Source: a virus. Taken from it: DNA of 26,413 nucleotides. Positions 4,156-25,015 of the stretch are shown here, piece after piece. The first letter of the stretch is position 1, and the number at the start of each line of letters is the position of its first letter. The notes below the pieces were generated by a model. The model was given only the letters and a program-made list of their open reading frames with translations, was not told the origin of the DNA and searched no databases. The stretch spans positions 1 to 26,413 of IMG/VR virus record IMGVR_UViG_3300006101_000054; one strand, written 5' to 3'. Position numbers and translations under genes: made by a program.

Positions 4156-5487
4156 TTACTTATATTTAATGTCTTTACAATAGCCATTCTTTTGAAGTAG
4201 TGGAAGCATTTCTTCTAATTTTTCTCCTATATCATCTCTAACCATAGGAGAGTTAATCATACATATTTTTTTCTTAAAAGTATCATAAGCATCACATTTG
4301 GCATCATAAACAGTTTTGCCTGTACCAGAGACAGTCATTACATAACTACCAGCCGTAACTATACAAGGCTCTGTGTTTCTACCATCTTTACCTGGTCCAA
4401 AACCCATCTTAACTTCTGACAAATGGATGTTACTAGTAGCATCTTCCATTGTTAAATCAAAGATAGGGTAGCCTGTATTTTCTTTCTTTTTAACGTTGTT
4501 GTAAGGGTAGTCAGGTTGAGATACAACAATACCACAAGCAATGCTATCTTTAACTTTAAGGGTGTCTTTACCATCTAAAGAGTCAAGCATCCAACCAATA
4601 GGACAGCCTGTATGTAGAGCTTGTTGGATCTGGAATAGAGGCCATCCAGGACGAGTAGTAAACTCTAGGGGCCAGGGATTACCCTTATCATCAATGATAC
4701 AGTTAACGTCTATATAACCGCTGTAACCTATACCATGTAAAAAACCTTCTAAAGGTAATAAAACTTTTTCAGCTAACAAACTCTTCTGGGTATATCTCAT
4801 CACAGTACCTTGCTCACCAGTAGCAGGACCATGATCCCCAGACATTAGCTTCTTAAACTCCCAATTCTCAAGTATGTGTTTAGAGAATCCACCTAAACCA
4901 AACCATCCACCAACAGCCATCTCACAGCCTTTGTGGAACTCTTGTAGAACAAACTCACCATCGTAAGCATTGCTCTTCTTCCATTTGTTAAGCATAAAGA
5001 CCATATCACGCCAGTCTTTAGAACAATAGCTAAGAGCTTTATCTCCATCACCAACAGGTTTAGATACATAACGTTTGTTTTTATTAGCAAGTACAAGTGC
5101 TATAGCATCATCATACTTCTTAAACTTTTGCATAGGAATAGTAGCAATACCAGCTCTTTCAAATATAGCTGACCCGTATTCTCTATCTTGTTCCCATCTA
5201 GCACCTTCTACATTGCAGCCATAAATGGGGTATCCTTTACGTCTATAAGGTTCTATACGTTGTATATACCTGCTGTTATCAGTAACAAATATAAGATCAG
5301 CCCAGTCCATACTGGGTTCCCAATCAGGTACTTTCTTAAAACAATCCATACCATCACCGTTTTCACAGCGAGTACCATCAAAGTTGTTACGCATATACAC
5401 ACGTACATCGTGTCCGTAAGCAGCAGACTTGATAGCCAAGTCCATAGCAAATCCACAATCAAATTGGTCAATGATTAGAAGTTTCAT
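4156..5487 (-). CDS. PurD-like ATP-grasp ligase
   Basis: This 443-residue protein matches the whole layout of phosphoribosylamine-glycine ligase (E. coli PurD is about 430 residues). It has an N-terminal Rossmann-like start (MKLLIIDQFDCGFAMDLA) and an ATP-grasp core at about residues 100-290. The core contains RYVSKPVGDGDK (ATP-binding lysine K143), VLQEFHKGCEMAVGGW, and the metal site WPLEFTTRPGWP where PurD has LEFN.RFGDPE. The C-terminal domain has TAGSYVMTVSGTGKTVYDA and RDDIGEKL, as in PurD. The PurD glycine-rich N-terminal loop is not conserved, so the substrate may differ. Its place between an ejection protein and a fibre suggests a virion-linked or late metabolic role rather than ordinary purine synthesis, but that is inference. 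Confidence 0.82.
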   Translation of the reverse strand: MKLLIIDQFDCGFAMDLAIKSAAYGHDVRVYMRNNFDGTRCENGDGMDCFKKVPDWEPSMDWADLIFVTDNSRYIQRIEPYRRKGYPIYGCNVEGARWEQDREYGSAIFERAGIATIPMQKFKKYDDAIALVLANKNKRYVSKPVGDGDKALSYCSKDWRDMVFMLNKWKKSNAYDGEFVLQEFHKGCEMAVGGWFGLGGFSKHILENWEFKKLMSGDHGPATGEQGTVMRYTQKSLLAEKVLLPLEGFLHGIGYSGYIDVNCIIDDKGNPWPLEFTTRPGWPLFQIQQALHTGCPIGWMLDSLDGKDTLKVKDSIACGIVVSQPDYPYNNVKKKENTGYPIFDLTMEDATSNIHLSEVKMGFGPGKDGRNTEPCIVTAGSYVMTVSGTGKTVYDAKCDAYDTFKKKICMINSPMVRDDIGEKLEEMLPLLQKNGYCKDIKYK

Positions 5488-5489
5488 AA

Positions 5490-8400
5490 TTATTTACTTT
5501 GTTCGAGTTTTTCTCTACGTTTATCTAACCGTTCTTTTTCTTTGTCGTGTTTAGGAGTCCACTCCATACGACCAGCTTTAATTTCTTTGTCTCTATAGTT
5601 CCAAGCTTGTTCTTTAGTAGCAAGTTCACGTTCAGCACGTTGAGCTTTTCTAGTATCAGCATCAGCACCATAAATAGGAAATCCTGCTGTTCCTAGTAAC
5701 GCACGTTTAACACCTTCTCCTTCAGGAGCACTACTAGCAGCTTGTACTTGGAAAGGAGCCATACCTTTAGCAACAGCACCCAACCTACTCAAAGCACTTC
5801 TATCAACAAGTTTAGGAGCATTAGGACTAGCATACTCTAAACCACCTATACCAACAATAGCAGCTTTAGGTAAAAACCCTAGCTTGTTAGAAAGAGTTTT
5901 ATCTGGATCAGCAAGCCAATGATAAGGTTCCATAGCGTGTTTCATAGCTTGCATAGAAGTACCATCTGGAAACTCTATACGAGTAGGATCTTTGTTCTCC
6001 CATATAGGTCTATTAGCTGTCATCATATTAATAGCATTTAACAAAGTAAAGTATGTTAATGCTGTTTTAAACTGATACAACCTAGCATAGTCTCCTTTAG
6101 TTGTAGGAACTGCTAAACCTTTAATGCCTTCTACTGGATGCCACGTACTTGGGTTAAGATCTTTGGGTAGAGCAGAACTAAAAGCACGTACAGTAGATAT
6201 AGTCCAGTCTGGAGCAAACAAAGCTATTTGAAGTGCTCTACGACCTTCAGGGCTATAAGCAGCAAGAGCAACACGTTTACCAAATTCTGTTCTAGAATCT
6301 AATGCAGCTTGATACCAATTAAGACCACCACCAGCTTCATTTAAAAACTTAGCTATTTCTTTACGACTTACTGCTTCATCAAAAGGTTTACCCTCTTTAG
6401 AAGCTTGCATACGTGCCCTATCTAAATAAGCTTCAGCAGTTGATAACTTAATGCCTGTGTGTAAATAATCCCAAGTGTATTTATCAAAGTATCCTAAAGT
6501 ATACTTCTCAACAATACTAAGAGACTTCTCTAATACCCTAGTCTTAGGTCCAAACTTACCAATTAAAGTATCAGCAAATTTACCTGTAGCCGTAAGTATT
6601 CCTTGAGTCACATCTTCTGGTACACCCAATTGAAGACCATCTTCTCTAATCCACTTGTCAACACTAGAACCAACACCACCTTTTTTAAATTCATCTACAG
6701 CTTTACTAATAGCAGACAGTTGTATATCTTTACCAGTAAAAGCTTTAGCTCCTTTTTCTACCAAAGGAAGAACAATAGATTCTTTAATGGGTGACCAAAT
6801 AGGTATGTTAGCACTAGACTGGACTTCCATCAAAGACTTAGCGTGAAAGAAAGAACCAATAACGTTCATTCGTTTAACAAACTGAGAGATAGAACCAAAT
6901 GCTTTCATCAAGTCTCCAGGACCTGAATCAAATACAAATCTTAAGTGTGGTTCTAAATCTGGATGAATAGCGTATCCAGCTAATTCAGAGTTGTCCATTA
7001 CTTTCCAACCATATGGTAGTGGCTCATCTTTGGTAATAGGTTTAATTAAAGACTCACCATTCTCATTTCTAACCTGTTTAATGTTTTCAATAAGATTTTT
7101 ATTCTCAATAGCTTTTTCTACTGAGAGTGCGTAGTCTTTATAAATCTCTGCTAAGTTGTTTGACTTAAGTTTAAAGCGATAATCTTTGCCGTTATCAGCT
7201 AACCATTTGTTAATACCGTTAAGATGGATAGTTAAATCTTCACGAGTCTTAAGTCTACGTTGTTCACCGTACTTAGTTGTAGTCTTAGTACCTCCTTCTG
7301 ATGCAACTTCACCATAACCAAAAGCATCTTTTAAGAACTGTTCTAAAGCTCCAGGTGGAGCAGCACCCTCTGTAACTACATTACGAGCTACATAGTCTTC
7401 ATGCCAACCATTGATAACACCTTTTTCTAAAGCACGTTTACCTAAGTCATCCATTAGCTCTCTAAACTTATTAGCTACTTCTTTAGCTTTACCAACTAAA
7501 GTTTCACCTTTGTCTATGTCAAAACTAAGTTTCTCTAGGTCAACATCTTTACCAGCCATCTCTTTAAGATCACTGGTGTTGTTATGTACGATACGCTCAT
7601 TGGCTTCTTTGGAGTTTAAGTTTGTACCAACAAACTTTTCTACTTCTCCAACAGCATTACCCCAAGTCTTTTTATATTCTTGGTAACCCTCAAAGAATTT
7701 AACAGCCTCTACTTCACCATGTTTTTCGTAAATCTCTTGAGCTATTTCATTAAACTCTTCTTCGTCTTTAATGTCTCTAGGAGATGTTTTAGTGCGATCT
7801 ATAGGAGCTTCTTCTTTAGGAGCAGTTGTTTCAGTAGCTTTAGGTGGCTCACCAGTTGATCCAGTAGCAGCTTTACGTTCGTCTAATGCCTTAAGAGCCG
7901 CTTTATTAATTTGGTCTTCATAGCCGCCTTTAGTCTGTCCTTCTTTAATAGGAGTCTTAACATGTTCAGCCTCGTGTTGAATAACAAAGTCAACCCACTC
8001 TTGTGGTGTTTTAAATGTATTTGCAGGTAAAGGTTCTACACCTTCTACTTTAGGAGTAGTCCAAGGTTTATCTTCAAATTGTTGATACAAATGATCTACA
8101 TCAACAGATATTTCTATTGGGTTGCCATTAGCATCTCGTTTAGTTGTAGCACCAACTCTAGATCCATCAGGACGAGTTTTATCTAACCCACGAGTAATAG
8201 GCACACCATTAATTTCTTCAGGTATAGATACAAGCTCAAAACGTTTATCACCAGCAGCTCTTAAATCACCACTGTGTAGACCTTCTCCCATTACAGTAGG
8301 CTTTTGATCTTTAGCTATTTGACCAGCACTAGTAGCTCTGTTCCAAGCTTCTTTACGATCAAGAAAATTACCCTGCTCATCTACAAACCCTTGGTCATGG

Positions 8401-9293
8401 GTATCTTTAGTAGACGCTTTAATAGATTCTGGATGTTTAGGGCCTAGACGAGTAATCTCACCAGTAGCTTTATCTTTAATAGCTGTTTCAACAAGAGGTA
8501 TAGTAGAGTCTTTTTGTTTCTTAGTCTTTTCTAAACCAGCAACAAACTCTTCTTTAGATATACCTGGTGGGGGATTAACGTTACTAGTAACATCGGGTTT
8601 CTTACCTGCACTCATATCAATAGGAGCAGCAGCTTGACCTAATAGACGTTCACCTAATTTAGTAGGTTTAGTAACCGTCCCAGTGGCAGCATCAACAGTC
8701 ATAGCTACAGGATCAAATGGATCACCACCTTGTATGGCACGTTGAGTAGCACCCACAACAGTCATTATTCCAGCACCTGTTGCACCTTGTGAAATACTAC
8801 TAGGTAGACCAGGACGCATTAAAGGATTAAATGCCCCACCTGCAACTTGACCAGTAAGAGATGCGTAAGGATATTCTTTTTGTTGTTGTTCTCTAATGCC
8901 AGAAATGTTAGTACCAAACATTTGGTCAACAAAACTTTCTGTTACTTTTATAGCACCACTAGCAAGAATACCTCCACCAATACCTCCTAAAAGTGCTCCA
9001 GCAGGTTTAGATAGTGGTCCTAATATAGGAGCAACAGGAGGCATAAGAGCAGCACCCCCTCTAGCTCCAAGTAGTACACCAGGTGTAGCAGCAATAGACT
9101 CAGCAGCAGAAGCACCAAAAGCTCCTAAAGCATTTACAGTAGGAGTAGCTTTACCTGGTTCCATACCAGGTCTAGGATATACACCAAATGCAGCTTTAGT
9201 TTCTACAGGAGTAGTCTTGACCTCATCAGGATCTACAAAACCACCTTTAGTAGTAGAAGTTGGTTTAACCTCATCGGGGTCAATGAAAGCCAT
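5490..9293 (-). CDS. Large internal virion (ejection) protein with HExxH motif
   Basis: This is a 1267-residue protein, the largest in the window. The N-terminus carries two copies of F(I/V)DPDEVK, then a Gly/Ala-rich hydrophobic region (about 45-125) that could insert in membranes. A short domain around residues 425-470 has H440-E441-x-x-H444 followed by GGYE at 456-459, a plausible zinc metallopeptidase site. The rest is largely helical and charged. The C-terminal third (RMQASKEGKPFDEAVS, SPEGRRALQIALFAPDWT) recalls long virion proteins that are ejected with DNA and 'large polyvalent' phage proteins. It overlaps the upstream gene as TAATG and has AAAGG before the ATG. Role: probably forms part of the DNA translocation channel or digests murein on entry; this is inference from size and context. 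Confidence 0.75.
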   Translation of the reverse strand: MAFIDPDEVKPTSTTKGGFVDPDEVKTTPVETKAAFGVYPRPGMEPGKATPTVNALGAFGASAAESIAATPGVLLGARGGAALMPPVAPILGPLSKPAGALLGGIGGGILASGAIKVTESFVDQMFGTNISGIREQQQKEYPYASLTGQVAGGAFNPLMRPGLPSSISQGATGAGIMTVVGATQRAIQGGDPFDPVAMTVDAATGTVTKPTKLGERLLGQAAAPIDMSAGKKPDVTSNVNPPPGISKEEFVAGLEKTKKQKDSTIPLVETAIKDKATGEITRLGPKHPESIKASTKDTHDQGFVDEQGNFLDRKEAWNRATSAGQIAKDQKPTVMGEGLHSGDLRAAGDKRFELVSIPEEINGVPITRGLDKTRPDGSRVGATTKRDANGNPIEISVDVDHLYQQFEDKPWTTPKVEGVEPLPANTFKTPQEWVDFVIQHEAEHVKTPIKEGQTKGGYEDQINKAALKALDERKAATGSTGEPPKATETTAPKEEAPIDRTKTSPRDIKDEEEFNEIAQEIYEKHGEVEAVKFFEGYQEYKKTWGNAVGEVEKFVGTNLNSKEANERIVHNNTSDLKEMAGKDVDLEKLSFDIDKGETLVGKAKEVANKFRELMDDLGKRALEKGVINGWHEDYVARNVVTEGAAPPGALEQFLKDAFGYGEVASEGGTKTTTKYGEQRRLKTREDLTIHLNGINKWLADNGKDYRFKLKSNNLAEIYKDYALSVEKAIENKNLIENIKQVRNENGESLIKPITKDEPLPYGWKVMDNSELAGYAIHPDLEPHLRFVFDSGPGDLMKAFGSISQFVKRMNVIGSFFHAKSLMEVQSSANIPIWSPIKESIVLPLVEKGAKAFTGKDIQLSAISKAVDEFKKGGVGSSVDKWIREDGLQLGVPEDVTQGILTATGKFADTLIGKFGPKTRVLEKSLSIVEKYTLGYFDKYTWDYLHTGIKLSTAEAYLDRARMQASKEGKPFDEAVSRKEIAKFLNEAGGGLNWYQAALDSRTEFGKRVALAAYSPEGRRALQIALFAPDWTISTVRAFSSALPKDLNPSTWHPVEGIKGLAVPTTKGDYARLYQFKTALTYFTLLNAINMMTANRPIWENKDPTRIEFPDGTSMQAMKHAMEPYHWLADPDKTLSNKLGFLPKAAIVGIGGLEYASPNAPKLVDRSALSRLGAVAKGMAPFQVQAASSAPEGEGVKRALLGTAGFPIYGADADTRKAQRAERELATKEQAWNYRDKEIKAGRMEWTPKHDKEKERLDKRREKLEQSK

Positions 9294-10969
9294 TATAATT
9301 TACCTTTCTTTTTACCCTCTGCAATAATGTCTGCTTCTGACATACCTGGGTTAGCAGCCTTAGCTCTATCAACCCAAGATTGTTGTTCAGAAGTTAATTT
9401 GTTACTAGTAGCTTTTGATCCTTTGTTCCACTCTTTTAAACTAGTGTCATCCCATTCTTTAAACGGAGACTTACCTACACTAATTAATTTGTCAGCATGA
9501 GTTTTAGCCTTATTAAAAATAGAATCTGGAATGTCTTTTACATTAGGCTCTGTCTTTAAAAAGTCTATTTCTTTTTGTGTTAGACCAGGAACAAATGTAG
9601 GTATGTCTACTTCTTTACCATTTATTTCAGTACCAATAGAATACTCACTCATGTCTTTTCCACTGTTACTTTTTTGTTTACCTAACCATCCAGGACCTTT
9701 TGTAGAACCATCTGGTCTTTTCCAATCTGGTTTAACATTACCTTTACTATCTAAGTAAGGTTTAGAAGTAGATTCAGTTGGTGTAGTAGTTTTATCAGGT
9801 GTAGGTTTACCTTTCTTGGCTTCTGCTTCTTCAACACTAGTTCCACCACCAAATAGTTCTACATTATGTTTAAGTTTATCAACAACATATTTTTTTTCTT
9901 TAAAAGAATCAGGAGAGCTTACAGCAATATCAAGTTGTCTTTGAGCAACTTTTAATTGGTAGTCGTTATAGTCTTTAACCGCTGCTCTATAGTTGTTATC
10001 AAGTTTAATTTGATCCATAGAACCTGTAGGACCTTTTTGCCTAGCAGCATTGGCATTGTCCATGATAGTTTTTAGATTAAGTGTTATCCTTGGATTCTCT
10101 ACTTTATCTAATCTAAGATTAACATCATTCCAACTCTTCTCTGTTAAACGTCCTTCTGCACGGGTATCTTTACCTTCTTCTTCAAGTTTTTTACGAACAA
10201 ATGCAGCACTTTCTTTAGAAGATTCTCTAGCATCAGCATGTTCTTCACCAATTATTTTTGCTCTAATTTTTCCATCAACATTAATGTTAGCAACATCTTT
10301 TTTATTTTGACCAGTTTGTTCTAACTTATCTTCTTGCATTGCTGCAAGTTGATTAGTAAGCCTCTTACTAGTAATCATCATTAAGTTCTTAGTAACATCT
10401 ATTTTTTGTTCAGGAGTAAATTTATCCCAGTTGGCTTTACCAACTTCTTTAATTAAAACATCTTGTTGTTCTTTAGGAAGGTTCTCAAGAGTAGCACCTT
10501 GTTCTAAGTTGTAATGAGCTTTAGATACTTCTTGAGCATCTAATATATTTTGTTTTTCTTGGTTTGTTAATTTAGCAGCATTAGCTTTGTCAACTTCACT
10601 GGTAAGTTCAAAAGCTTTTTCTGTATCACCTGCTTTAAATAAAGCAACTTGAGTCATTTTAAGAATAGCTGAATTATCTTGTTTGTTTACAGCGTCTTGA
10701 AATTCAGGTGTTTTATAAAGATCTAAAAGAGTAGCTTTAGACTTTTCACTAGCTTTAATATTAGCATCAGAAACTAAATTAGCAAGATTAGTTTTAGCAG
10801 CATTAGCTTGTTCTTGTTGTATTTGAACCTGTTGTCTTTGCAGAGTATTTTGTTGCTCTTGCATTTTATTGGCTTCAACTTGTTGCACATTAGGTGCAGC
10901 AGCCATATTCTGCTGTAACTGTAACGCAGCTTGACTACCAACAGCAACATCGGACATTAAGTAAGCCAT
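9293..10969 (-). CDS. Internal virion protein, Gln-rich coiled coil
   Basis: This 558-residue protein begins with a Gln/Asn/Ala-rich helical region (residues 14-60), followed by long charged helical segments and a flexible Thr/Ser/Pro/Lys linker near 395-410. The last 110 residues hold a compact segment (VDIPTFVPGLTQKEIDFL) and a final short helix unit (SWVDRAKAANPGMSEADI) that looks like a small binding module. Composition and position between the Gly-rich 221-residue protein and the 1267-residue protein fit the middle member of a podovirus ejection-protein trio, like P22 gp20 or T7 gp15 in place but not in recognisable sequence. AGGA precedes the ATG. Confidence 0.65.
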   Translation of the reverse strand: MAYLMSDVAVGSQAALQLQQNMAAAPNVQQVEANKMQEQQNTLQRQQVQIQQEQANAAKTNLANLVSDANIKASEKSKATLLDLYKTPEFQDAVNKQDNSAILKMTQVALFKAGDTEKAFELTSEVDKANAAKLTNQEKQNILDAQEVSKAHYNLEQGATLENLPKEQQDVLIKEVGKANWDKFTPEQKIDVTKNLMMITSKRLTNQLAAMQEDKLEQTGQNKKDVANINVDGKIRAKIIGEEHADARESSKESAAFVRKKLEEEGKDTRAEGRLTEKSWNDVNLRLDKVENPRITLNLKTIMDNANAARQKGPTGSMDQIKLDNNYRAAVKDYNDYQLKVAQRQLDIAVSSPDSFKEKKYVVDKLKHNVELFGGGTSVEEAEAKKGKPTPDKTTTPTESTSKPYLDSKGNVKPDWKRPDGSTKGPGWLGKQKSNSGKDMSEYSIGTEINGKEVDIPTFVPGLTQKEIDFLKTEPNVKDIPDSIFNKAKTHADKLISVGKSPFKEWDDTSLKEWNKGSKATSNKLTSEQQSWVDRAKAANPGMSEADIIAEGKKKGKL

Positions 10970-10981
10970 AATTTATTCCTA

Positions 10982-11647
10982 TTAAGGACCAACATAGTTT
11001 GAGCCAGTACCCATACCACTAGTATCACCTAAACCACTACCATAGGTATAAGTACCACCTTGTGTTTGATACCCAGGAGTAGACATAGCTGATGTATTTG
11101 CTCCACCACCAAATTGACCAGATAATCCAGATAATCCAGTAGAAACTGCTCCAAGACCTTGCATAATAGCTTGTTGTTGAGCATTTTGTTGTGTTGCACC
11201 TAGTTGAGCAGCAGCAGCGGGATTAAATCCAGCTCCAGCTCCACCAGACAATTGACTTAAATAATTATTCATAAATCCTGAATAACCTTGTTGTGCTACA
11301 CCTTGTAGAGCTTGAGCTTCATTGCCAGAGTACAACATACCTGTACCAGCAGCAGCTCTTTGAGAAGCTTGTTCAGCAGGAGCAACAACACCTGTTTGAA
11401 ATTGAGTAAATCCAGGCATAGCTTGGGGATTAGCAGATTGACCTGGCTGTAAATACCCAGCATACATTTGAGCTAGTTGAGCTTGGTACGGAGCCATAGG
11501 ATTAGCTGCATTTGTAGCTGCAGTACCTGCTTTTGAACCTCCACCAATTCCCAAAGCATTAGTTATGCTACCACCAGTAAGCGCATTAACACCAGCAGCT
11601 ACAGTTACACCAGCAGCAAGACCAGTTAAAGTTATTCCAGCAGACAT
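10982..11647 (-). CDS. Gly/Ala/Gln-rich internal virion protein
   Basis: This 221-residue low-complexity protein has a hydrophobic Ala/Gly N-terminus (ITLTGLAAGVTVAAGVNALT), a Gln/Ala-rich helical middle (residues 55-170) and a Gly/Ser/Thr/Tyr tail. The start is ATG 11647 rather than the in-frame ATG at 11665, because AAAGGAGA lies 7 bases upstream of 11647 and the earlier ATG overlaps that site. The 5' end overlaps the cupin-SET gene by 16 bases. Its place after gp4/gp10-like genes and before two long helical proteins suggests the smallest ejected protein (as P22 gp7 is small), or a pilot protein. Sequence alone does not prove this. Confidence 0.65.
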   Translation of the reverse strand: MSAGITLTGLAAGVTVAAGVNALTGGSITNALGIGGGSKAGTAATNAANPMAPYQAQLAQMYAGYLQPGQSANPQAMPGFTQFQTGVVAPAEQASQRAAAGTGMLYSGNEAQALQGVAQQGYSGFMNNYLSQLSGGAGAGFNPAAAAQLGATQQNAQQQAIMQGLGAVSTGLSGLSGQFGGGANTSAMSTPGYQTQGGTYTYGSGLGDTSGMGTGSNYVGP

Positions 11648-12528
11648 GTTTTGTCTCCTTTCCAAATATTGTTTAATTTCATAACTTGTCTATAGTCAAC
11701 AGTTATTTCTTCACCTAAATCACCACCCACCATACCACCTATATCTCGTAATGTTACTAAGAACATGTCATTAAAACCCGTTAAAATAGCTTTTGCATTA
11801 GGACGCTTAGAATGATTAACAAGATAACCAGCAGGAGTTCTTAACCCTCCAAGCCTCATAGGAGCAATAACACTATCTTGTTTTATTAAAGCAGTAGAAA
11901 ACATTCCTTTACCTTGTATTGGTGAATTACCAGAACAAATGCTATAACTACCATCTGGAAAAGGAATGCAATCTTTTCTATATTTAGATGCTAACTCTAT
12001 GTCTTCTAAAGTCCAACCAGATTCTTGAACCATCAATAAAAAGTCTTCTCGATCTTCTTGGTATAAAGAATACTCTTTACTTAACTTTTCTTGTTGATGT
12101 TCTTTAAGAATATCTGGGGATATAAATAATATTGACTCTAAGTATTCTACATCAGTACTATTAGTAACATAGATATTTTGCCACACAACATCTTCTAATG
12201 TAAAGCCTACTTTGCTACCTGCTTTAGCTACAAACATATGTGGAGCTGTTAAAGTCTGTATAGAACCGTTTCCATCTATAACGTTAATGCTACCCTTAAG
12301 CAAAACATTCATATGCTCAGAGACATGTTCTTGACCTACTATGAGAGTATTTTTAGGATAGTGTGCTTCCCTAATATACAGCCCTCCACCAAATCTATGA
12401 ACAATAGAATTTTCAATTTGTTCTTCTTTTAACAATACTTTAGCTAAAGCTAATTTACTTTCTGAAGTACTTAGGTTAAACCCTTCTTTATTAGCTACAG
12501 AATTAATGGCTTCTACTATTTGATTCAT
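11632..12528 (-). CDS. Cupin-SET domain fusion protein
   Basis: In this 298-residue protein, residues about 43-125 form a cupin-like beta barrel: LIVGQEHVSEHMNVLLKG with H68, E71 and H72 as likely metal ligands, then TAPHMFVAKAGSKVGF. Residues about 195-281 carry the SET signatures in order: SPIQGKGMFS (start of SET), VNHSKRPNA at 237-245 (matching NHSxxPN), and GEEITVDYR at 272-280 (matching GEEhTxDY with catalytic Tyr). SET domains transfer methyl groups from S-adenosylmethionine to protein lysines; catalysis here is inferred. Between the domains is a charged helical linker. AAGAGG precedes the ATG. It lies between the connector and ejection genes, so a virion protein is a plausible substrate. 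Confidence 0.8.
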   Translation of the reverse strand: MNQIVEAINSVANKEGFNLSTSESKLALAKVLLKEEQIENSIVHRFGGGLYIREAHYPKNTLIVGQEHVSEHMNVLLKGSINVIDGNGSIQTLTAPHMFVAKAGSKVGFTLEDVVWQNIYVTNSTDVEYLESILFISPDILKEHQQEKLSKEYSLYQEDREDFLLMVQESGWTLEDIELASKYRKDCIPFPDGSYSICSGNSPIQGKGMFSTALIKQDSVIAPMRLGGLRTPAGYLVNHSKRPNAKAILTGFNDMFLVTLRDIGGMVGGDLGEEITVDYRQVMKLNNIWKGDKTCLLE

Positions 12529-12530
12529 AA

Positions 12531-14378
12531 CTACCTCTTGTATTGAGTACCGCTACCAACAGATTGTTCTTGGTCCATTTCACCAAGTCTAAAATCAATC
12601 TCAGCAGCATCTAACCTAAGAGGAACATTGTCATAGCATAAAAACTGCCAAGACCTACGTCTGTCAGCTCCACTAAGGTATACCTGTGCTCTAGGAGCAT
12701 TAAGATTAACAACCCTAGGAGTAGAGTAACTAGCGTAGTCATTACCAGAATGACTGATGTACATGTTACCAGCTACCTTATCCCCAACAATTTCTAAACG
12801 ACCATAGAATTTACGTTTGGTAGTACCGTTGTCTCTAATGTCTGTAACAGACCTACAATAAATAGGTTGACCATTATCTTGGTAAACATTAGTATTAAAG
12901 TAGTACAAATTACCATTAGTGCTGTCTAAACAGTAGGGCGTATTATTAGCATCTGCATAAAATGTAGGTACAAAATAGTTTTCAGATGAACCGTTGTAAG
13001 AAGTCCAGGTGTACCACATCTTTTCATCTAAATCATAAACTAAAGTTTTATTGGTGTTATATAGCGTTAGTATATAAAAGGTATGACCATTTATCTTATA
13101 CACATAAGCAGATACGTGTGTTAATGAATCGGCTTCTAAGTGCCTATCTATATGGCTAGTAGATACCTTAATAGGAGATACCCCATCCATAAGGTACACA
13201 GACTTACCATAAGTTTTTGTAGTAGCTACCCATATAACTGTGTTACTAGTAGAAACAAGACTGTCTCCATTAGCACAACCTATTTCCATAGTATAGCTAG
13301 GAGCTACAGTAAGGGGTGAACCAACAGCATTACCAACATCATAAAAAAACTGGGTAGTTGAAGAACCGTAAGCTATAAGGTAGTTCAAATGTTTAGCAAT
13401 ACTAACTAATGTGTCTCCTGTTTGTTCAAAGCTTAAAAAGCTAAGAGCATTCCATTGAGTTGGGTCACCAACGTTGCAGTTGTATATACGGTTGTTAGTT
13501 GTACCAACAAATACGTATTGATCTAAAAACACAGCACCAGATACAAAAGGACCCACAGGGAATGAGTTAAGAGCAGGAGTTAACACTGCTCCAGAACCTA
13601 AATCTTGAAAGGTAATAGTACCTGATACAGTAGCTGTGTTTGGAATGTTTAAAGTTATTGTTGTTCCATTGATGCTAGTAACCATAGCATTGGGTGCTAT
13701 GCCTGTACCACTAGCAAACATACCTGTGTATATACCACTAGCACTAGATACAGACACAGTATAAAAGCCAGTAGTACCAGAACCAGTAGGAGTTTGTGTA
13801 GCAGGTAAATTAATTGTACAAGTAGGAGCACTAGAGTATCCACTGCCAGGATTGGTAATGGTTACAGTAGTTATATTTCCCGATACAACTGTAGCAGTAG
13901 CAGCAACACTACCAGAAGAAAAGCTAAGAGTAATACCTGTACTATAGTTTAAACCAGGGTTGTCAATGCTAATAGCTACAACAGTTGTGTTATTAATAGT
14001 ATTTAAGGTTCCTGATTTGTTTAGTAAATAACCATTAACTTTATTATGAAAAAACAAATAGTTATTAAGAAATGTATTTACAAAATAACTTTGGCTTGTA
14101 GATGCAGACGTTGATCCTAAAGTAGTAACAGCGTAGCTACTAGGATTAATTTGATAAACAGTGTTATTAATAACAGACACTAAATTACCGTTGTAAGCAG
14201 TTAAACCTTGTGCTGTTCCACTAGCAATTGTAGTAGCTTTAGTCAGCCCAGGTCTTTTAACAAAGTCTCTTTTACCATTGCTACTATCAAAGAAAACGTT
14301 AGCACAATACGCATCAGATGCAAAAGATCCTGTACGACTATCTATTGGTTGTGTAAGTGCTATTCTTTCGGTTGCCAT
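12531..14378 (-). CDS. Tail hub / packaged-DNA stabilisation protein, P22 gp10-like
   Basis: This 615-residue protein begins with ALTQPIDSRTGSFASDAYCAN and KRDFVKRPGL, a start typical of the P22 gp10 family that closes the portal and joins the tail. A beta-propeller-like region follows (TAYNGNLVSVINNTVYQI, FLDQYVFVGTTNNRIYNC, LIAYGSSTTQFFYD). The end (GRLEIVGDKVAGNMYISHSG and LDAAEIDFRLGEM) also fits the family. Residues about 135-262 look like an inserted Ser/Thr-rich module with NPGSGYSSAPTCTI. At 615 residues it is longer than the P22 protein (about 470), consistent with that insert. No strong ribosome binding site is seen; translation probably couples to the upstream gene ending 1 base before. 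Confidence 0.85.
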   Translation of the reverse strand: MATERIALTQPIDSRTGSFASDAYCANVFFDSSNGKRDFVKRPGLTKATTIASGTAQGLTAYNGNLVSVINNTVYQINPSSYAVTTLGSTSASTSQSYFVNTFLNNYLFFHNKVNGYLLNKSGTLNTINNTTVVAISIDNPGLNYSTGITLSFSSGSVAATATVVSGNITTVTITNPGSGYSSAPTCTINLPATQTPTGSGTTGFYTVSVSSASGIYTGMFASGTGIAPNAMVTSINGTTITLNIPNTATVSGTITFQDLGSGAVLTPALNSFPVGPFVSGAVFLDQYVFVGTTNNRIYNCNVGDPTQWNALSFLSFEQTGDTLVSIAKHLNYLIAYGSSTTQFFYDVGNAVGSPLTVAPSYTMEIGCANGDSLVSTSNTVIWVATTKTYGKSVYLMDGVSPIKVSTSHIDRHLEADSLTHVSAYVYKINGHTFYILTLYNTNKTLVYDLDEKMWYTWTSYNGSSENYFVPTFYADANNTPYCLDSTNGNLYYFNTNVYQDNGQPIYCRSVTDIRDNGTTKRKFYGRLEIVGDKVAGNMYISHSGNDYASYSTPRVVNLNAPRAQVYLSGADRRRSWQFLCYDNVPLRLDAAEIDFRLGEMDQEQSVGSGTQYKR

Positions 14379-14379
14379 A

Positions 14380-15156
14380 TTAACGTCCGTAAGAGTTTGG
14401 ATTAGTAGATCTAAAGTCAGGCATAAAGAACGTGCTAGAAGCCTCTACATCCCAATCAGAGAGCTTTTCTCTATACACCAATGCTCTTGCTGCTATCTCT
14501 TGTCTAGAGTTAACTGGGACACCATATTGCATAGCCAACTCATCAGCTAATCCCCATACTAAAGTGTTTTGCCATTCAATAGGAAAGTCAGGAGTATCGG
14601 TAGAAGTACCAGTACCTAAAGTAATATCATTCAAAGGCATTTGAGCTACAACGTGTAACTGAATGTTTGTTTGAGAATTAAGATCTGGTGTTAAGTACAC
14701 ATACAAGATACCATTGTTTTCTCTAGGATCATAAAACAAAGTGTTAGCTGTACCAGTAGAAAACTTAGAACCTAACATGTTGTACTCTTGTTTAGAAACA
14801 ATAAGTACAGGTGTATCTATGTTAGGAGTTACTTGTATATTACGGTAGAACCCTTGGATAATCTTAAGTGGTTTGTCAGTAATAGCTACAGTAGGATTTA
14901 AAGAGTCATACATCAAAGTAGATGTAGATCCACCTAGTATGTAAGATGTTTGACCAGATGTAGTGGGAATAATAAGTTCAGTTATTTTCCACAGCTTTAA
15001 TCCATCTACACTCATTTGTTTAATTAGTAGGTTAAGAGACATTAAAGCATTGTTATATGTATTGGTATCAGGAGTATCACCAATTTCAAGCACACCTAAT
15101 CTACCTAGTGCTAAGGAAATAATTTGACTGCTATTAATACTGTAAGTAGAACTCAT
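14380..15156 (-). CDS. Head-to-tail connector / tail accessory factor, P22 gp4-like
   Basis: This 258-residue protein has an N-terminal helical part with SQIISLALGRLGVLEIGDTPD and NNALMSLNLLIKQMSVDGL, the usual start of the P22 gp4 tail accessory family that binds below the portal. Beta-rich segments follow (VLIVSKQEYNMLGSKFSTG), then a C-terminal helix rich in family features (PIEWQNTLVWGLADELAMQYGVP). P22 gp4 is about 166 residues, so this is a longer relative of the type common in aquatic podoviruses. AGGA lies 7 bases before the ATG. It is directly upstream of the gp10-like gene, as in P22-like gene order. Confidence 0.83.
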   Translation of the reverse strand: MSSTYSINSSQIISLALGRLGVLEIGDTPDTNTYNNALMSLNLLIKQMSVDGLKLWKITELIIPTTSGQTSYILGGSTSTLMYDSLNPTVAITDKPLKIIQGFYRNIQVTPNIDTPVLIVSKQEYNMLGSKFSTGTANTLFYDPRENNGILYVYLTPDLNSQTNIQLHVVAQMPLNDITLGTGTSTDTPDFPIEWQNTLVWGLADELAMQYGVPVNSRQEIAARALVYREKLSDWDVEASSTFFMPDFRSTNPNSYGR

Positions 15157-24667: not shown

Positions 24668-25015
24668 TTAAGTTTTAGCTAAATAAGGATCTACCAAGTC
24701 TACATCAGCATCCAAGGTTCCCGTAATGTCTTTATCGTTAATCATACGGTAATTGTTTCCGTCTTTGCCTAAATACAACAGTCCAGCGTATTTAGCAAAT
24801 ATAATCTTATCCCCAACTTTACACCAAGGTGCAGGTTCATCGGCATAACATTGGTCACCCATTGCTATAACAATACCAGTTGTATTGCCCATTTGTTCTC
24901 GTGCTTCAGTAGTCTCAGTAGTTAAAATAATTCCACCTTTGGATACTTTTTTAACTTCCTGGGGCTTTACAAGAACTCGCCAACCTACGGGATTAATTCC
25001 AGAATCATTGCTCAT
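24668..25015 (-). CDS. groES-like: GroES-type co-chaperonin (Cpn10)
   Basis: This 115-residue protein is close to the usual size of about 95-110. It begins GWRVLVKPQEVKKVSKGGIIL: the first strand followed by the mobile loop with G27-G28-I29-I30-L31, the tripeptide that binds GroEL. It continues with GIVIAMGDQC, KVGDKIIFAKYAGLL and YRMINDKDITGTLD, which match the Cpn10 barrel. Phages such as T4 (gp31) supply their own co-chaperonin so the host GroEL can fold their capsid protein; the same is inferred here from the place just before scaffold and capsid. GAGAGG precedes the ATG. It overlaps the preceding gene by 11 bases. Confidence 0.92.
   Translation of the reverse strand: MSNDSGINPVGWRVLVKPQEVKKVSKGGIILTTETTEAREQMGNTTGIVIAMGDQCYADEPAPWCKVGDKIIFAKYAGLLYLGKDGNNYRMINDKDITGTLDADVDLVDPYLAKT

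Follow-up and report, generated by a model that had tools for sequence, protein, structure and literature searches.

Among described enzymes, the closest to the protein considered here are the SET lysine methyltransferases vSET (PBCV-1 A612L) and those of the MLL type, with which it has in common the SET fold, the GxG and NHxxPN motifs and the catalytic Tyr. The alpha-amine of the Rubisco small subunit is methylated by a SET-type enzyme, and Met1 before Ser is normally removed. It has been described that in SET enzymes an amine reaches SAM by way of a narrow channel, with a conserved Asn holding it and a Tyr assisting, and that Rubisco is one of their substrates (PMC9539859). N-terminal methylation of Ser, Ala and Met termini is known, including that of the Rubisco small subunit, so that alpha-N-methylation of proteins is not without precedent (PMC11450134), but the Rubisco system is that of the plant plastid and shows no sequence link to the phage protein.

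With respect to genome position, the comparable genes are gene 14 of P22 (DUF2824) and gene 13 of T7 (PF11090), which occupy the same slot directly before the ejection proteins and whose products may look GNAT-like. To our knowledge, the preparation of envelope-crossing proteins by short-tailed phages is poorly understood, P22 gene 14 and T7 gene 13 are without a clear mechanism, and a virion maturation step of the SET/alpha-amine kind belongs to no known class. The same cupin is found in the same slot in Vibrio, Thalassomonas and Shewanella phages as a cupin-only protein annotated 'short tail fiber' or 'tail fiber adhesin' (phrog_12032, phrog_24280); unlike the protein described below, these have no SET module, and residue 3 of the accompanying gp7 is bulky. 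The same protein at full length is represented by phrog_34170 (P26218 gp30, PH1 gp49), listed with function unknown. No paper describing it was found in the open-access literature searched, and the genome paper of P26218 makes no mention of its homologue as a methyltransferase.

The window, a stretch of 26,413 nucleotides of viral DNA, carries on its minus strand at 11632–12528 a gene for a protein of 298 aa plus stop that joins a cupin-like jelly roll to a SET module. The coordinates given for it in the original prediction were correct, and all the motifs quoted there are present: H68/E71/H72, QGKGMFS (205–211), NHSKRPN (238–244) and GEEITVDY (272–279). The protein matched phrog_34170 with an E value of 1.3e-68, residues 26–285 aligning with positions 21–281 of the 296 in the profile, and its first half was also matched by two cupin-only phage families (PHROGs). 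In phage records, full-length homologues were found in Rhodoferax phage P26218, Pseudoalteromonas phage PH1 and uncultured podoviruses, one of the last annotated 'pbcV-1 histone H3-lys 27 methyltransferase structure'; most remaining matches covered the cupin half only. Eighty loci with the gene were collected from IMG/VR and about 10 more from a genome collection, some on prophage-like contigs. A role in defence or counter-defence was rejected, as there was no credible PADLOC match.

The neighbouring genes, all on the minus strand, are those of a morphogenesis operon. Upstream lie a gp4-like adaptor of 258 aa (14380–15156), assigned by position and synteny with a match to phrog_12985 (E 1.8e-23) and a weak one to phrog_637 Ad3 (E 0.35), and a gp10-like head-closure (Hc3) protein of 615 aa (12531–14378; phrog_578, E 8.7e-44), beside whose stop codon an AGAGG ribosome-binding site for the cupin-SET gene was read at 12534–12538. 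Downstream follow a gp7-like DNA-ejection protein of 221 aa that starts MSAGIT (10982–11647; the slot of the P26218 DNA-ejection gene, phrog_598) and, by position and synteny, a gp20-like ejection protein of 558 aa (9293–10969) and a gp16-like large ejection protein of 1267 aa (5490–9293). The gp7-like start was reassigned from the TTG at 11665 to the ATG at 11647 on the basis of the Shine–Dalgarno sequence and homologues, the TTG of the open reading frame list being probably wrong. From this ATG the gene shares 16 bases with the cupin-SET gene and has its AAGGAG ribosome-binding site (11655–11660) a few bases upstream, inside the cupin-SET coding sequence. The predicted placement between the head-closure protein and the ejection proteins was thereby borne out, as was co-translation with the ejection genes, the gp7-like gene being overlapping and translationally coupled. 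The order gp10-like, cupin(-SET), gp7-like, gp20-like, gp16-like was kept across loci, except that some have a small extra gene ahead of the cupin.

The cupin-SET gene thus takes the slot that belongs to gene 14 of P22 and to gene 13 of T7, and we regard it as encoding an assembly factor in a short-tailed phage of the P22-like/T7-like kind. In the T7-like Sphaerotilus phage SnaP-R1, too, a cupin follows tail tubular B and directly precedes a protein of the T7 gp14 family. Homology of the cupin-SET protein to P22 gp14 (DUF2824) was rejected, none being detectable (hhalign probability 0.1). The pre-ejection gene of Pseudomonas phage PAE2 (L214:1968–2375) encodes a non-cupin protein that by eye looks P22 gp14-like. 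Elsewhere on the minus strand of the window, a Cpn10/GroES-like co-chaperonin (24668–25015; PF00166, E 4e-14) adjoins the portal gene, a VanY/M15 peptidase that is a probable endolysin lies at 1236–1655, and the ejection operon ends in a PurD-like ATP-grasp protein (4156–5487; TIGR00877, E 5e-15, far under the cut-off), which is 86–87% identical in L017 and L036 and far exceeds the conservation of the adjacent ejection proteins.

The C-terminal half almost certainly adopts a SET fold, as judged from the predicted structure and sequence profiles. The Pfam SET score of the window protein was 21.6 bits against a cut-off of 22.4 (E 3e-4); among homologues PH1 (34.3) and MW202744 (27.0) scored above the cut-off and P26218 (16.2) below it. 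A profile of 48 homologues matched the MLL1 SET domain with E 1e-5, in an alignment that took in the GxG half as well as the NHS...DY half, and the AlphaFold model built with the same number of homologues had a pLDDT of 92 and a pTM of 0.88. The SET part of the model (190–280), the NH...Y knot region included, superposed on MLL1 with Z 7.7 and 1.9 A over 79 aa and on vSET with Z 6.9 and 1.9 A over 80 aa; Z values of this size are moderate, and they are trusted because the sequence profiles independently match the same SET proteins. The core SET pattern occurred in none of 100,000 shuffles of the protein. A single-sequence AlphaFold prediction for L097, from the second SET lineage, reached a pLDDT of 31, and the fold evidence accordingly refers to the window's lineage only.

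Within the compact SET core (residues 193–285; 11674–11952, minus strand) the motif residues are G206xG208, R230, N238-H239, P243-N244 and Y279. Among 95 SET-bearing homologues, reaching down to about 28% identity, G208, R230, N238, E274, T276 and Y279 were invariant and H239 was kept in 94. The sole exception at H239 was L103, which has Gln, giving NQS for NHS. The claim of a complete SET motif set was therefore upheld by fold, motifs and homologue conservation together; loss of the fold, which was to count against enzymatic methylation, was not seen at model level, where SET is retained without SET-I, nor was the loss of Asn-His or Tyr among homologues that was looked for.

The absence of the SET-I sub-domain follows from the spacing between GxG and NH (G208–N238), which is 29 residues in all 95 homologues versus about 64 in MLL1 by profile alignment, some 35 residues shorter. 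SET-I is a usual insert of variable length in SET domains rather than a required motif. Compared with vSET and MLL, the protein also has no post-SET zinc cysteines, is fused to a cupin, lies in a bacteriophage assembly operon and probably has a substrate other than a histone-like lysine. A helical pre-SET segment (residues 139–181, with D159, R160 and D162; 11986–12114, minus strand), seen in the AlphaFold model and the homologue alignment, is confined to SET-bearing proteins, being missing from 19 of 19 cupin-only rows, and may stand in place of SET-I.

The invariant catalytic residues and the predicted fold make it very likely that the SET module is an active SAM-dependent methyltransferase, though one that might be weak or inactive because SET-I, the usual lining of the substrate groove, is absent. 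The dispensability of the SET half in many phages, together with the missing SET-I, would also suit a decayed or purely structural remnant; against this, dN/dS values of about 0.14 for the SET core and 0.065 for the cupin, rough because dS is near saturation, indicate purifying selection on both halves, and with the invariant catalytic residues they render a remnant highly improbable.

The cupin half proved different from what had been proposed. Residues 37–123 of the AlphaFold model (12160–12420, minus strand) match PDB cupins, so the jelly-roll fold is present, and H68, E71 and H72 are in place, but they do not form a conserved metal site. Over 95 homologues, H68 was His in 52 and E71 was Glu in 70, and position 107, where the motif-2 His would stand, was Val, Ala, Met or Ile. 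A cupin that binds metal or acts as a metal or ligand sensor was rejected on this variation of the ligands. The slot protein has the jelly roll as its conserved core, in a role that is probably structural. Cupin-only homologues are 140–190 aa long; a scan with one of them, P0003, as query found no loci.

In many phages the same slot is filled by a cupin-only protein, and comparison of the loci identified the SET half as a removable module that has been gained and lost among phages. The cupin tree of the first sample required at least three changes of SET state; that of the larger sample had at least five on supported branches and seven on the best tree. The cupins of L097 (with SET) and L099 (without) are 92% identical and their flanks are homologous. 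In L179 (247–1158) cupin and SET are separate tandem open reading frames before gp7, and a stand-alone SET of the same subfamily with neither a cupin nor an adjacent gp7 was found at L111:8025–8582, in a prophage-like remnant of a Rhodocyclales genome.

The presence of the SET module was accompanied by a particular start of the gp7-like protein. In the first sample all gp7-like proteins from SET-bearing loci, and none from other loci, began with M-S-[G/A/S]. Across the pooled loci (n=189) a Met-Ser-Gly/Ala/Ser start was found in 126 of 126 loci with SET and 0 of 63 without, residue 3 in the latter being mostly Trp, Val or Phe. A few contigs enter these totals twice. In the non-redundant loci, where this does not occur, Ser2 with a small residue 3 was found in 60/60 and 0/29, and unique gp7 starts gave 28/28 and 0/16. 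A second IMG/VR scan relied on a gp7 pattern that left residue 3 open and fixed or limited residues 1–2 and most of 4–10, so the fair comparison is that of residue 3 and of residues beyond 10. In its 80 loci, residue 3 was Gly (20) or Ala (14) with SET and Val (21), Trp (20), Phe (4) or Leu (1) with the cupin-only protein. A scan with gp7 of Vibrio phage 234P9 as query found no loci. In the sequences compared, SET modules and gp7 proteins with a small residue following Ser2 therefore coincided without exception. Fisher p-values for such counts ignore phylogeny; on supported branches of the cupin tree, five of five independent switches were concordant (sign test p 0.0625, a value limited by the small number of independent SET switches).

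The separation was localized. Residue 3 carried 0.99 of the 0.99 bit of mutual information with the SET label, residues after 10 carried at most about 0.3 bit, and the next ejection gene showed no comparable separation (at most 0.28 bit), on which ground a general N-terminal difference between phage groups was rejected. Overlapping reading frames were likewise rejected as the cause. A frame effect is real for overlaps of 10–22 bases, in which ...CQE* reads as MSGI in the other frame and ...CQ* as MSV, but the separation holds where codon 3 lies beyond the upstream gene (39/39 with SET, 0/21 without). In reference phages the corresponding starts are MCW (T7 gp14) and MLY (P22 gp7), and three more distant cupin-less ejection proteins start MSL, MGS and MCG, so a small residue 3 alone is not confined to SET phages.

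This association might reflect no more than linkage, with the SET module and the initial gp7 codons forming one recombination cassette and the enzyme being an active lysine methyltransferase with another virion or assembly substrate. The genes overlap or abut, which puts the start of gp7 only tens of bases from SET codons; the gp7 of L089 (with SET) and of Shewanella phage X14 (without) are 84% identical, with differences mostly in the first 10 residues as after a crossover; and only five independent switches are supported. Two points favour selection over mere linkage: within SET-bearing loci there have been about 15 switches of residue 3 among Gly, Ala and Ser but none to Val, which a single base change would reach, or to another bulky residue, and residue 3 alone fully separates the classes while residues after 10 hardly do. 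The gp7 of L179 also still begins MSA, although SET is a separate reading frame there. Linkage of this kind is somewhat unlikely on balance.

The covariation of SET with residue 3 therefore suggests that the enzyme acts at the start of gp7, and a functional coupling of the SET module to the gp7 N-terminus is likely on these comparisons. As a reading of the whole, we assign a probability of roughly 45% to an assembly factor whose SET module acts on the gp7-like ejection protein encoded by the overlapping next gene, by alpha-N-methylation. The chemistry would be methylation of the Ser2 alpha-amine once Met1 has been removed. The narrow SET tunnel takes an amine, and next to the N-terminus it would have room for a small residue but not for Trp, Val or Phe. 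Speculatively, the mark might shield the N-terminus of gp7 or give it a charge; gp7 has to be packed into the head and later to cross the cell envelope.

Alpha-N-methylation is itself a tentative choice of chemistry. The alpha-amine is a better candidate than lysine because gp7 has 0–1 Lys in the window's near relatives; with none universal, gp7 lysines were rejected as the substrate. The gp7-like protein of the window (10982–11647) has one Lys and one Arg in 221 aa, and those of L007, L008 and L051 have no Lys. Of the methylation of virion proteins suggested by the original prediction, the virion target is favoured by the SET fold with its invariant catalytic residues, its fusion to the cupin, and the position of the gene among virion genes and its co-translation with them, while lysine as the methylated residue is doubtful. 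The fuller statement, that a phage SET enzyme methylates the alpha-amine of its own ejection protein gp7 and that residue 3 has evolved in step with whether the phage encodes that enzyme, is somewhat more doubtful than the chemistry.

Binding without catalysis would also suffice for the covariation with gp7, the SET module then serving in head assembly to bind or chaperone the gp7 N-terminus. Its lack of SET-I and the annotation of the slot proteins P22 gp14 and T7 gp13 as morphogenesis or scaffold factors are consistent with this, but Asn238, Tyr279 and GxG, which binding alone would not need, are invariant or nearly so in the 95 homologues, and such a role is rather unlikely. Our order of preference is therefore alpha-N-methylation of gp7, then linkage with another lysine target, then a non-catalytic chaperone. 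Methylation of a host protein during infection, such as the ribosomal protein or chaperone first put forward, is decidedly unlikely. SET enzymes modify many proteins (PMC9539859; general knowledge) and the stand-alone relative L111 lies in a prophage-like remnant of a bacterial genome, but the gene belongs to the late morphogenesis operon, is fused to the slot protein and covaries with an ejection protein, and no host link was found.

The cupin-SET protein appears to carry a familiar enzyme fold into a new setting, and it has a candidate substrate. The invariant catalytic residues and the covariation of a single residue allow both the candidate substrate and the site to be named, which makes the question testable. 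If the proposed reading is true, protein methylation would join the steps of phage assembly, carried out by an unusually small SET enzyme.
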